A DNA stretch of 64,000 nt from Limnohabitans lacus (GTDB taxonomy: Bacteria > Pseudomonadota > Gammaproteobacteria > Burkholderiales > Burkholderiaceae_C), in assembly GCF_030053395.1 (NCBI RefSeq), contig NZ_JASGBH010000006.1, positions 1 to 64,000 of the forward strand, in the 5' to 3' direction. The translations under genes were made by a program, and so were the position numbers. Under the pieces are notes generated by a model. It was not told the origin of the DNA. It did no database searches and was given only the letters and a program-made list of their open reading frames with translations. This document shows, one piece after another, positions 4,206 to 41,949 of the stretch. Positions within the stretch are counted from its first letter, which is position 1, and every line of letters starts with the position of its first letter.

Positions 4206-4527
4206 GGTGAAGCTCGCCAGACCGCCGCTGGTGCAATCTCCGAAAGGAGGCACTGGAGGAACGTCCGGACTGCACAGGACAGCGTAGGAGGCAACGCCTC
4301 TCCACCGTGAGGTGAGGATCAGAGCAACAGAGACGAGCCGATTCAGTTCGGGTGAAACGGGCAATCTCTACGCGCAGCAATACCAAGTAGGCCAGCGTTG
4401 ATGTGGTTCCGCAGAGCTGGCGGGTAGGTAGCATCGAGCCGGGTGGGCGACCCCCGGCCCAGAGTAATGGCGGTCACGCAGCGGGCAACCGCTGTGCACA
4501 GAATCCGGCTTATCGGTGAGCTTCACA
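4206..4527 (+). ncRNA. rnpB: RNase P RNA (bacterial class A)
   Basis: This is the catalytic RNA that trims tRNA 5' leaders together with RnpA. The two ends pair as helix P1: GTGAAGCTC at 4207-4215 with GAGCTTCAC at 4518-4526. Conserved core blocks are present: GGAGGAACGTCCGGACTGCA near the 5' side, GGGTGAAACGGG and CAGAGTAATGG in the middle, and ACAGAATCCGGCTTAT near the 3' side. The length of about 320 nt is slightly short for the class. It stands alone between divergent cysK and the convergent Rrf2-type gene. Confidence 0.95.
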
Positions 4528-4543
4528 CTTTTTTTCAGCCAAC

Positions 4544-39138: not shown

Positions 39139-40599
39139 ATGATTTCACGTGAACCGACCATCGAACGCCTGGCCACAGCCAGAAACCTTTTGCTGGAGCC
39201 GTTTGGCTTGGATGAAAGCCATCTGAGCCAGGCGCTCAACGCCATCAAAGCCCACGCGGTTGATGACGCCGATTTGTATTTCCAATACACCCGCTCCGAA
39301 GGCTGGAGCCTCGAAGAAGGCATCGTCAAAACCGGCAGCTTCAGCATCGACCAAGGCGTGGGTGTTCGCGCCGTGTCGGGTGAAAAAACCGCGTTTGCCT
39401 ATTCGGACGACATCTCCTTGGCTTCTTTGATGGATGCGGCCATGACGGTGCGCTCTATCGCCTCGGCCGCCCAAAACAAGCGCATCAAGGTGCCTGCGCG
39501 CAAGATCTCGGCCAGCCGCTCGCTCTACCCCGCGCTGGACCCGATGTCCACGCTGGACAGCACAGCCAAAGTGAATTTGCTTGGCCATGTGGAAAAGATC
39601 GCCCGCGCCAAAGACCCGCGTGTGGTGCAGGTCATGGCGGGTTTGGCCACTGAGTACGACGTGGTCATGGTGGCCCGCGCTGACGGCACGCTGGCCGCCG
39701 ACGTGCGCCCATTGATCCGCCTGTCGGTCACCGTGATCGCTGAGCACAACGGTCGCCGCGAAGTGGGCAGCAGTGGCGGCGGTGGTCGCTTTGGCCTGGC
39801 CTATTTTGACGACGCGATGGTCGAGAGCTATGTGCAAGAAGCCGTCTCGGCCGCGCTGATCAACCTCGAAGCCCGCCCCGCGCCAGCGGGTGAGATGACG
39901 GTGGCGCTGGGCAATGGCTGGCCCGGTGTGCTCTTGCACGAGGCTGTTGGCCACGGCCTGGAGGGCGACTTCAACCGCAAGGGCTCAAGCGCTTTCAGCG
40001 GCCGCATCGGCCAGCGTGTGGCGGCCAAGGGCGTCACCGTGCTCGACGACGGCACCATCGCCGACCGCCGGGGCTCGCTGAACGTGGACGACGAAGGCCA
40101 CGCCAGCCAAAAGAACGTGCTGATCGAAGACGGCATCTTGCGCGGTTACATCCAAGACGCTATGAACGCGCGTCTGATGGGCGTCAAGCCCACCGGCAAC
40201 GGCCGCCGCGAAAGTTACGCCCATGTGCCCATGCCGCGCATGACCAACACCTACATGCTGGGTGGCGACAAAAGCGCCGAAGAAATTGTGGCCAGCATCA
40301 AAAAAGGGCTGTACGCCACCAACTTTGCAGGCGGCCAGGTGGACATCACCAGCGGCAAGTTCGTGTTCTCGGCCAGCCAGGCCTACTGGGTGGAAAACGG
40401 CAAAATTCAATACCCCGTCAAGGGCGCGACGCTGATCGGCAGCGGCCCCGAGTCGCTCAAGAAGATCAGCATGATCGGCAACGACATGAAGCTCGACTCG
40501 GGCGTGGGCACCTGCGGCAAAGAAGGCCAAAGCGTGCCGGTGGGCGTGGGGCAGCCCACGCTGCGCATCGATGGCCTCACGGTGGGCGGCACGGCCTGA
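39139..40599 (+). CDS. tldD: Metalloprotease TldD
   Basis: 486 residues from ATG 39139. Partner of TldE/PmbA in processing peptide antibiotics and clearing partially unfolded peptides. Zinc motif HEAVGHGLEGD near residue 262, GVGVRAVSGEKTAFAYS near the N-terminus, and the family C-terminus ESLKKISMIGNDMKLDSGVG. An ATG 9 bp upstream would add MDL, but a promoter-like hexamer covers it. tldE is not in the window. Confidence 0.92.
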   Translation: MISREPTIERLATARNLLLEPFGLDESHLSQALNAIKAHAVDDADLYFQYTRSEGWSLEEGIVKTGSFSIDQGVGVRAVSGEKTAFAYSDDISLASLMDAAMTVRSIASAAQNKRIKVPARKISASRSLYPALDPMSTLDSTAKVNLLGHVEKIARAKDPRVVQVMAGLATEYDVVMVARADGTLAADVRPLIRLSVTVIAEHNGRREVGSSGGGGRFGLAYFDDAMVESYVQEAVSAALINLEARPAPAGEMTVALGNGWPGVLLHEAVGHGLEGDFNRKGSSAFSGRIGQRVAAKGVTVLDDGTIADRRGSLNVDDEGHASQKNVLIEDGILRGYIQDAMNARLMGVKPTGNGRRESYAHVPMPRMTNTYMLGGDKSAEEIVASIKKGLYATNFAGGQVDITSGKFVFSASQAYWVENGKIQYPVKGATLIGSGPESLKKISMIGNDMKLDSGVGTCGKEGQSVPVGVGQPTLRIDGLTVGGTA

Positions 40600-40655
40600 T
40601 GGGCTTGTTCGGGTTTGTCCTCAAAGCAGTCTGTCAGAAACTGTCATCTGGCTGT

Positions 40656-40663
40656 GATACATT
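40656..40663 (+). promoter_or_regulatory. Extended -10 promoter of the aroG leader
   Basis: TG-A-TACATT (TG at 40655-40656, hexamer 40658-40663) is an extended -10 match, and 7 nt separate it from the leader-peptide ATG at 40671. No strong -35 is evident, as is common with extended -10 promoters. Transcription would begin at or beside the ATG. Confidence 0.5.
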
Positions 40664-40670
40664 GAATGCC

Positions 40671-40745
40671 ATGTCTTTGCGCACCGCTTTTTACTTTTTT
40701 TATTTTTGGTTCTCAGTCCCCGGCGGACGAGAGGCGAGCGCATAA
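40671..40745 (+). CDS. Aromatic leader peptide of the aroG attenuator
   Basis: A 24-codon ORF (ATG 40671 to TAA 40745) starting MSLRTA. Codons 7-14 read FYFFYFWF: five Phe, two Tyr and one Trp in an unbroken run. It then continues SVPGGREASA. The aromatic run is the sensor expected of an attenuator that measures charged tRNA-Phe, tRNA-Tyr and tRNA-Trp. The ORF ends 23 bp before a strong terminator and 88 bp before aroG. The start codon lies 7 nt after a -10-like box with no room for a ribosome-binding site, so initiation is predicted to be leaderless. Comparable in logic to the Phe-rich leader of E. coli pheA. Confidence 0.85.
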   Translation: MSLRTAFYFFYFWFSVPGGREASA

Positions 40746-40775
40746 GCACCCGAACATCTCGACACACACCGCCGG
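40720..40775 (+). promoter_or_regulatory. Antiterminator pairing in the aroG leader
   Basis: CCGGCGG at 40720-40726 (within the leader ORF) can pair with CCGCCGG at 40769-40775. The same 40769-40775 segment forms the 5' arm of the terminator, so the two structures exclude each other. A short CCGC at 40684-40687 can in turn pair with GCGG at 40723-40726, giving a candidate 1:2 pairing when the ribosome does not stall. Confidence 0.65.
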
Positions 40776-40801
40776 AGCCCCAAAGCCCGGCGGTTTTTTT
40801 T
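40769..40801 (+). terminator. Attenuator terminator upstream of aroG
   Basis: CCGCCGG (40769-40775) pairs with CCGGCGG (40787-40793) across an 11-nt loop and is followed by eight T. It lies between the leader peptide and aroG, so it must be bypassed for aroG expression. Confidence 0.88.
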
Positions 40802-40833
40802 CACCTGTTATTTTTCAATCTGAGGAACCCACG

Positions 40834-41949
40834 ATGACCCCCAAGAACACAGAAGCCTGGAATGCCCAAGCCATCGACCGCACAGGACAGACCGATGACG
40901 AACGCATCAAGGACATCACCGTGCTCCCGCCCCCGGAACATTTGATTCGTTTTTTCCCGATTGCCGGCACGGCCACGGAAACCCTGATCTCCCAAACCCG
41001 TCAGTCGATCGCCAAGATCGTGCACGGCAAGGATGACCGCTTGCTGGTCATCATTGGACCCTGCTCGATCCACGACCCTGCAGCAGCCTTGGATTACGCC
41101 CGCCGCTTGAAGCCTTTGCGCGACCAGTACGCCGACACGCTCGAGATCGTGATGCGCGTGTACTTCGAAAAGCCCCGCACCACCGTGGGCTGGAAGGGCC
41201 TGATCAACGACCCCTACCTCGACGAGAGCTACCGCATCGACGAAGGCCTGCGCATCGCACGCCAGCTGCTGATCGAGATCAACCGCCAAGGCTTGCCTGC
41301 AGGCAGCGAGTTCCTCGACGTGATCTCGCCCCAGTACATCGGCGACCTGATCAGCTGGGGCGCCATCGGTGCGCGCACCACCGAGAGCCAGGTTCACCGC
41401 GAGCTGGCTTCGGGCCTGTCGGCGCCCATTGGCTTCAAAAACGGCACGGACGGCAACATCAAGATCGCGACCGACGCGATCCAGGCGGCGGCCCGTGGCC
41501 ACCACTTCCTGTCGGTGCATAAAAACGGCCAAGTCGCCATCGTGCAGACCCAAGGCAACCAAGACTGCCATGTGATCTTGCGCGGCGGCAAAGCCCCCAA
41601 TTACGACGCCGACAGCGTGGCCGCCGCTTGCAAGGAACTCGATGCCGCCAAGCTACCCGCCACCTTGATGGTGGACTGCAGCCACGCCAACAGCAGCAAA
41701 AAGCACGAGCGCCAGATCGACGTGGCCAAGGACATCGCCGCGCAAATCAGTGGTGGTTCGCGCCAGGTGTTTGGCGTCATGGTCGAAAGCCACATCGTGG
41801 ACGGCGCTCAGAAGTTCACGCCCGGCAAGGACGATGTGAACGCGCTGGCCTATGGCCAAAGCATCACGGATGCTTGCATTGGCTGGGACGACAGCGTAGG
41901 CGTCTTGCAGGTGCTCTCGGATGCGGTGAAGGCGCGCCGTTCGCGCTGA
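40834..41949 (+). CDS. aroG: 3-deoxy-7-phosphoheptulonate (DAHP) synthase, class I
   Basis: 371 residues from ATG 40834, with GAGGA upstream; an open frame reaching back to 40666 crosses the attenuator and is not coding. It condenses PEP with erythrose 4-phosphate, the entry step to Phe, Tyr and Trp. Family motifs are seen: IGPCSIHDPAAALDYARRL, FEKPRTTVGWKGL, GARTTESQVHRELASGL, FKNGTDGNIKIA and DCSHANSSKKH (metal ligands). AroF, AroG and AroH types cannot be separated by eye, so the symbol is for the family. Expression should fall when aromatic amino acids are abundant, through the upstream attenuator. Confidence 0.93.
   Translation: MTPKNTEAWNAQAIDRTGQTDDERIKDITVLPPPEHLIRFFPIAGTATETLISQTRQSIAKIVHGKDDRLLVIIGPCSIHDPAAALDYARRLKPLRDQYADTLEIVMRVYFEKPRTTVGWKGLINDPYLDESYRIDEGLRIARQLLIEINRQGLPAGSEFLDVISPQYIGDLISWGAIGARTTESQVHRELASGLSAPIGFKNGTDGNIKIATDAIQAAARGHHFLSVHKNGQVAIVQTQGNQDCHVILRGGKAPNYDADSVAAACKELDAAKLPATLMVDCSHANSSKKHERQIDVAKDIAAQISGGSRQVFGVMVESHIVDGAQKFTPGKDDVNALAYGQSITDACIGWDDSVGVLQVLSDAVKARRSR

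Follow-up and report, generated by a model that had tools for sequence, protein, structure and literature searches.

A putative ribosome-mediated transcription attenuator upstream of the DAHP synthase gene aroG in Limnohabitans lacus and its relatives

The aroG gene of Limnohabitans lacus is very probably controlled by a classic ribosome-mediated transcription attenuator that senses the supply of Phe, Tyr and probably Trp, as judged from sequence comparison and predicted RNA folds. The gene is located in a 64,000-nucleotide stretch of DNA analysed here as a whole (the window), in which tldD ends at 40599 and a leader ORF and a predicted intrinsic terminator lie between tldD and aroG (Table 1). 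The leader ORF contains an uninterrupted run of codons for end products of the pathway, and a predicted antiterminator overlaps the leader ORF and is mutually exclusive with the terminator. An earlier, sequence-only reading of this DNA had proposed that aroG is attenuated by ribosome stalling. This proposal is supported by the conservation of the aromatic run, by the terminator and by a competing helix that covaries, from which we infer the response to amino acid supply.

Table 1. Positions of the predicted leader elements and of aroG in the window
Feature	Position	Strand	Basis
Extended -10 element, TGATACATT, separated from the leader ATG by 7 nt; transcription predicted to start on the ATG or 1-2 nt upstream of it	40655..40663	+	sequence, conservation
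Leader ORF, 24 codons, MSLRTAFYFFYFWFSVPGGREASA, stop codon TAA at 40743-40745	40671..40745	+	sequence; aromatic-rich ORF in 146/146 family leaders
Aromatic run FYFFYFWF, codons 7-14, of which YFWF is the best conserved part	40689..40712	+	sequence, conservation
Segment 1, TTCTC; potential pairing with GAGAG would sequester segment 2b (candidate anti-antiterminator)	40710..40714	+	minimum free energy fold, arm-swap test
Segment 2a, CCGGCGG; predicted 5' arm of the antiterminator	40720..40726	+	folds, pairing conservation
Segment 2b, CGAGAG; pairs through 40728-40732 with 40757-40761 in the predicted second antiterminator helix, or else with segment 1	40728..40733	+	fold, arm-swap test
Segment 3b, TCTCG; predicted to pair with 2b in the antiterminator	40757..40761	+	fold, arm-swap test
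Segment 3, ACCGCCGG; predicted 3' arm of the antiterminator (40769-40775) or 5' arm of the terminator, mutually exclusive	40768..40775	+	folds, covariation
Segment 4, CCGGCGG (40787-40793), and T8 (40794-40801); predicted 3' arm and U-tract of the terminator	40787..40801	+	fold, covariation
Shine-Dalgarno sequence of aroG, GAGGA	40822..40826	+	sequence
aroG, encoding a type I DAHP synthase of 371 aa; gene under the proposed control	40834..41949	+	TIGR00034, E 1.8e-164

The leader in Limnohabitans lacus

The 24-codon ORF with its run of eight aromatic residues had been recognised in the sequence-only reading and was recovered base for base. Among the 127,954 starts in six frames, this is the single stretch of the window with eight aromatics in eight codons; in ten dinucleotide shuffles, aromatic runs do not exceed 3-4. 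The strong intrinsic terminator postulated soon after the ORF is likewise present (40768-40801, eight T), with a predicted energy of -18.4 kcal/mol (z -4.2) that none of 200 shuffles equalled. The CCGGCGG motif inside the ORF has the position and the complementarity to CCGCCGG of the terminator arm that had been claimed for it, and the alternative fold of 40719-40775 is predicted at -22.1 kcal/mol (z -4.5; 0 of 200 shuffles as good). This antiterminator apparently consists of two helices, the second of which is formed by CGAGA and TCTCG. In the fold of the full-length leader (40671-40801; -40.8, z -2.5, equalled by 3 of 200 shuffles) it is the terminator that prevails. A generic terminator scan of the window did not list the terminator; its hairpin is beyond the loop limit of 3-8 of that scan unless an inner bulge is allowed.

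An ORF of 427 aa in the frame of aroG is open from 40666 across the attenuator into the gene. The expectation that gene callers may extend aroG over the attenuator therefore holds, with 427 aa as the possible length of such a product. The same genome encodes a second DAHP synthase (57% identical, C12:395463-396503), and an aromatic leader was searched for in the 420 nt upstream of it and not found. A TrpR search (PF01371) in this genome likewise gave no match, the control search being positive in E. coli and B. subtilis.

Two side observations were made in the same genome. Upstream of trpE, a possible leader ORF, MFIIPCHPCAACLPSHSPVEGRGAWPWRQPA, was noted (L233 reversed, ATG at about 1217), together with a TGCTACACT element that ends 9 nt before its ATG; stems are found nearby, without a U-tract. 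At 4209-4528 of the window, on the + strand, lies a bacterial RNase P class A RNA.

Occurrence, conservation and competing readings

Within the family, 149 of the 150 genomes examined encode AroG. A covariance model (R1, built from the 73 leaders of alignment A1) matched 146 of the 150 genomes, once each, and four had no match; the genome of the window likewise has one match only. Among the matches listed, 141 of the 146 are directly upstream of AroG and co-directional with it (median gap 68 nt), and the other five comprise one with AroG on another contig and four with no AroG among the matches listed. In a set of 110 AroG loci, 94 are preceded by a short ORF that has five or more aromatics within eight codons. 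The 16 loci with fewer include one cut by a contig end, one probable diverged leader (L046), records of Polynucleobacter, Thauera, Azoarcus and Enterovibrio, and two of Cupriavidus, possibly paralogues. In three Polynucleobacter records (L057, L059, L060) AroG is 77% identical and the upstream sequence is without an aromatic leader ORF.

The 110 loci were reduced to 88 by dropping 13 with fewer than four aromatics or without upstream sequence, three without a T run, and six others that were weak, short, duplicate or doubtful (L046, L075, L078, L079, L085, L105). Alignment A1 comprises 73 of the 88. The 15 omitted are the leaders of the Oxalobacteraceae and Xanthomonas types together with L103, L076 and some outlying or nearly duplicate sequences. 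A wider set of 35 sequences forms alignment A2.

All 146 family leaders possess an aromatic-rich ORF, which starts with ATG in 145 and has at least six aromatics in eight codons in 136. Phe codons are found in all 146 leaders, Tyr codons in 143 and Trp codons in 137. The 141 leaders that could be anchored (five could not) were aligned on the last aromatic codon, position 0, which is hence aromatic by definition; from position -3 to 0 the aromatic fraction is 0.86, 0.96, 0.91 and 1.00, at position -4 it is only 0.51, and the last four aromatic codons are mostly Y, F, W and F. Synonymous variation (TTT/TTC, TAC/TAT) is seen within the run. An eight-codon sensor, as originally suggested, is thus present as a run, but its eight codons are not equally conserved, the last four being kept best. 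Joint sensing of all three amino acids fares similarly, since most family leaders include a Trp codon, but one occurs in just 10, and a Tyr codon in 23, of 24 leaders from other families of the order, which were counted by eye among the best-scoring matches and are a non-random sample. We interpret this difference as an indication that Phe and Tyr are the core signal, and Trp looks like a lineage feature.

Oxalobacteraceae-type aroG leaders (L089, L091, L093, L098-L101, L106) contain Phe and Tyr codons in a run without Trp codons; L089 and L101 have Trp codons solely 3' of the run.

The predicted helices are conserved as well. On A1, the 2:3 antiterminator is paired in 95.7% of the cells, with three of its seven pairs double-changed (12 cells), compared to 14.5-61.1% pairing in slid controls; on A2 it is paired in 94.3%, with three double-changed pairs (15 cells). 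The 3:4 terminator is paired in 97.8% (A1, one double-changed pair) and 96.1% (A2, three double-changed pairs). Covariation scores are above all 500 shuffles in all four counts, i.e., for both helices on both alignments. The number of further pair types is unremarkable, because most pairs hardly vary: the observed value was reached by 190 (A1) and 47 (A2) of 500 shuffles for 2:3, and by 494 (A1) and 485 (A2) for 3:4. The double-changed terminator pairs were reached by 381 (A1) and 35 (A2) of 500 shuffles. RNAalifold on A1 found the terminator as sole structure, as is expected where structures are alternative.

Individual leaders display the coupling of the arms. In eight of them, GACGG in place of GGCGG in segment 2 is coupled to CCGTC in place of CCGCC in segment 3, and a U-G pair keeps the terminator; the GACGG/CCGTC combination was seen directly in L024 and L030. 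In G019 AGCGG is paired with CCGCT, and in G022 all three arms are changed jointly. Segment 3 is changed in 12 leaders, ten of which have a matching segment 2 with five Watson-Crick pairs, the remaining two having a wobble (G124) and a mismatch (G038). In 10 of 142 leaders, segments 2 and 3 share fewer than five pairs (e.g., A-C mismatches in G078 and G100), under an arm matching that required 3:4 pairing and took the best complement of segment 3 in the search window as segment 2, which favours pairing. Four of the 146 leaders fell outside this matching through script limits, and by eye all four have complementary arms. Relatives inside and outside the family thus retain the aromatic run, the terminator and the 2:3 helix, with changes in one arm compensated in the other, and the lack of conservation that would have refuted the attenuation proposal was not observed.

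The position of these motifs relative to the reading frame provides insight into what is conserved. GGCGG occurs in all three reading phases (110, 27 and 4 of 141 leaders), and so does GAGAG (109, 11 and 8 of the 128 leaders having it), which suggests that the RNA and not the peptide is conserved 3' of the aromatic run and argues against selection on the downstream peptide. The same pattern bears on the idea that a nascent arrest peptide, similar to TnaC, senses a free aromatic amino acid and sets the switch, instead of codon starvation. Such a peptide would agree with the highly aromatic leader product and with SVPGGREA or a similar sequence after the run in many close relatives, yet the peptide after the run shifts with the reading frame under a constant RNA motif, the order of F, Y and W differs among relatives, and arrest by a free product would presumably increase the expression of a biosynthetic gene instead of decreasing it. 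We therefore consider an arrest peptide most unlikely, and retain starvation for aromatic codons as the preferred signal.

Upstream of the leader ORF, 125 of the 146 family leaders carry the pattern TGnTAnnnT with its end 6-8 nt from the start codon. When distances of 0-59 nt were considered, it was nearly confined to 6-10 nt and was found outside 4-20 nt once in total (43 control distances). A motif resembling a Shine-Dalgarno sequence precedes the leader ORF in one of the 146 leaders. A scan for two-hexamer consensus promoters gave no promoter at the leader, and no -35 element was identified. The usual gap between a -10 element and the start site is 6 nt, which would place the transcription start on the ATG or 1-2 nt upstream of it. 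Taken together with the almost complete lack of Shine-Dalgarno motifs, this suggests that the leader ORF is probably leaderless. Records of the Burkholderia type (L081-L096) mostly have a TATAAA-like element tens of nucleotides upstream and no extended -10 by the ATG, which indicates that the position of the promoter may have changed between lineages.

The leader is not confined to one family. In a sample of the order, R1 matched 60 of 250 genomes, in 38 of 120 genera and under 14 family labels including the own family, and the model R2 matched 59 of 250; both counts are probably lower bounds, because few clades are represented in the models and the filters are strict. In a sample of the class, the leader was found in 5 of 274 genomes, of which three belong to the own family and two to a single other family, with leaders such as MNAARASFYFWYYFPKPLAEEGLRSP. 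AroG is directly downstream on the same strand in 33 of the 33 loci checked. These loci represent 31 distinct places, of which 5 belong to the own family, 24 to other families within the order, and 2 to the further family found in the class sample.

This distribution, with 26 of the 31 places outside the family, also weighs against the possibility that the terminator serves tldD, that aroG has its own promoter and that the ORF is incidental. The location of the terminator between tldD and aroG would suit such an arrangement, but the U-tract is separated from the aroG ATG by 32 nt only, which leaves insufficient room for a full promoter; moreover, the conserved -10 element precedes the leader ORF and the competing 2:3 helix covaries. 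We regard a terminator of tldD as highly improbable. It is equally improbable that an RNA-binding protein or a small molecule exerts the main control and the ORF only tunes it: terminator/antiterminator architecture is common to riboswitch and T-box type systems and is shared by the leader, but the alignments show no other conserved domain, the best conserved coding feature is the aromatic run, and Rfam gave no match near the leader at gathering scores and, at E up to 5, two sub-threshold matches at chance level (REN-SRE and CC0196).

Proposed mechanism and a candidate third hairpin

Ribosome-mediated attenuation of aroG would proceed as follows; here we infer the transcription start, translation of the ORF, stalling, the amino acid response and the 1:2 hairpin. 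RNA polymerase would start on the leader ATG or immediately upstream of it, followed by a ribosome on the probably leaderless ORF. With ample Phe-, Tyr- and Trp-tRNA, the ribosome would reach the stop codon, where its footprint may lie over GAGAG and in many leaders also over CCGGCGG. Segment 2 would be masked by this terminating ribosome, the 3:4 terminator would form, and transcription would stop before aroG. When the ribosome stalls at the last aromatic codons (Y-F-W-F), it would cover segment 1 and leave segment 2 free; the latter could then pair with segment 3, which would block the terminator and allow transcription of aroG. When the leader is not translated, hairpin 1:2 would favour termination.

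Spacing in the leaders is consistent with these steps. The Trp codon ends 12-15 nt before GGCGG in 117 of the 133 leaders having Trp upstream of GGCGG. As the front edge of a ribosome reaches about 9-10 nt beyond the A-site codon, a stall at Trp or just before it would mask segment 1 and free segment 2. Stop codons are mostly found 1, 10 or 16-17 nt after GGCGG (13, 25 and 68 of 141 leaders), and a terminating ribosome would accordingly cover GAGAG and often GGCGG. Mean predicted energies from every third leader (47 of 141) are -11.5 for 1:2, -20.9 for 2:3 and -16.6 for 3:4, with mean z of -1.35, -2.73 and -3.95. Together with the codon and stop positions, these values fit termination by default and antitermination upon stalling.

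A third hairpin, formed by TTCTC (segment 1) and GAGAG, is likely on the basis of folds and arm comparisons. TTCTC falls in the F-S codons after Trp, and its pairing with GAGAG appears in the full-length fold. Both TCTC and GAGA are present in 119 of 141 leaders, and matching arms specific to other clades occur elsewhere, such as ATTCCA with TGGAGT in Oxalobacteraceae-type leaders. In an arm-swap test on 37 hand-picked sequences in clades defined by ourselves, which was a second look at the same question and is weakened by relatedness, native arms gave -6.66 vs -5.51 when swapped for 1:2b (1/5000) and -5.17 vs -4.18 for 2b:3b (0/5000). The covariation count of 1:2 on A2 in the MAFFT register gave no support, with 75.4% paired cells vs 75.1% in shuffles. 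Nor was the mere occurrence of a 1:2 stem accepted as evidence, since stems of at least four pairs are equally frequent in shuffles (139.9 vs 140 observed in 141 leaders).

Significance and comparison with known systems

At DAHP synthase, carbon is committed to the whole set of aromatic amino acids. A conserved cis switch on aroG, which has no Rfam entry and is easily mis-annotated as part of the gene, would explain how this step is controlled at the transcriptional level in a large bacterial group. In strain engineering, the leader would also offer a ready-made sensor of the aromatic amino acid supply, and the existence of leaders that have or lack Trp codons would provide a natural series for testing how multi-amino-acid attenuators set their specificity. 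More tentatively, and with the odds in our view against it, a leaderless three-aromatic attenuator could be the main transcriptional control of shikimate entry in a large part of the Burkholderiales-type order and in one family outside it. It would there replace repression by TrpR/TyrR, with the Trp codon gained or lost by lineage and Phe/Tyr kept, and the terminated leader RNA of about 130 nt or its peptide might act in trans like rnTrpL/peTrpL.

That a DAHP synthase gene can be attenuated is known in principle, having been described for Corynebacterium glutamicum aroR-aroF; the aroR leader of aroF is reportedly treated by Neshat et al. in 2014. The open-access literature, searched in part for this lineage, yielded no report of an aroG attenuator in it. 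The aroG leader is a new and widely conserved case, particular in its three-aromatic sensor and its probably leaderless ORF. Beyond the sequence-only reading, the present analysis adds the extended -10 element by the ATG, the probably leaderless state of the ORF, the two-helix antiterminator, a likely third hairpin and the spread over families.

Among the attenuators of E. coli, ilvL likewise reads several amino acids. Compared to trpL, pheL and ilvL, the aroG leader targets the common entry enzyme, combines three aromatics in one run, probably lacks a Shine-Dalgarno sequence and has a predicted antiterminator of two helices. It resembles trpL and pheL in that a stall on codons for the end product would select the antiterminator over the terminator, as outlined for these leaders in passages of PMC11802643.

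In C. glutamicum, passages of PMC11802643 and PMC4046766 describe leader-peptide attenuation of DAHP synthase at aroR-aroF, likewise with aromatic codons in a ribosome-mediated system before the DAHP synthase gene. The aroR peptide contains Phe-Tyr-Phe and belongs to an actinobacterium, unlike the Limnohabitans leader, and the two are likened by these descriptions. For Acholeplasma aroF, the corresponding passages of PMC8632094 propose an uORF motif (uORFC-13-1), which is a prediction. Here, too, an uORF lies beside a terminator before DAHP synthase, and its U run codes for at least one Phe; it differs in lineage and consensus, and a run of three amino acids is not described in those passages. 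The same source cites an attenuation hypothesis for E. coli aroF, and attenuators were predicted upstream of Vibrio DAHP synthase-tyrA operons, according to the relevant passage of PMC1173090.

A parallel for the predicted start of the transcript is Sinorhizobium meliloti trpL, whose leader transcript begins at the ATG of the leader ORF and is thus leaderless, as stated in passages of PMC7298713. The trp operon of this species is, by the same passages, not under transcription repression. S. meliloti trpL differs in reading Trp only and in controlling the trp operon, and there rnTrpL and peTrpL act in trans (PMC7298713, same passages).
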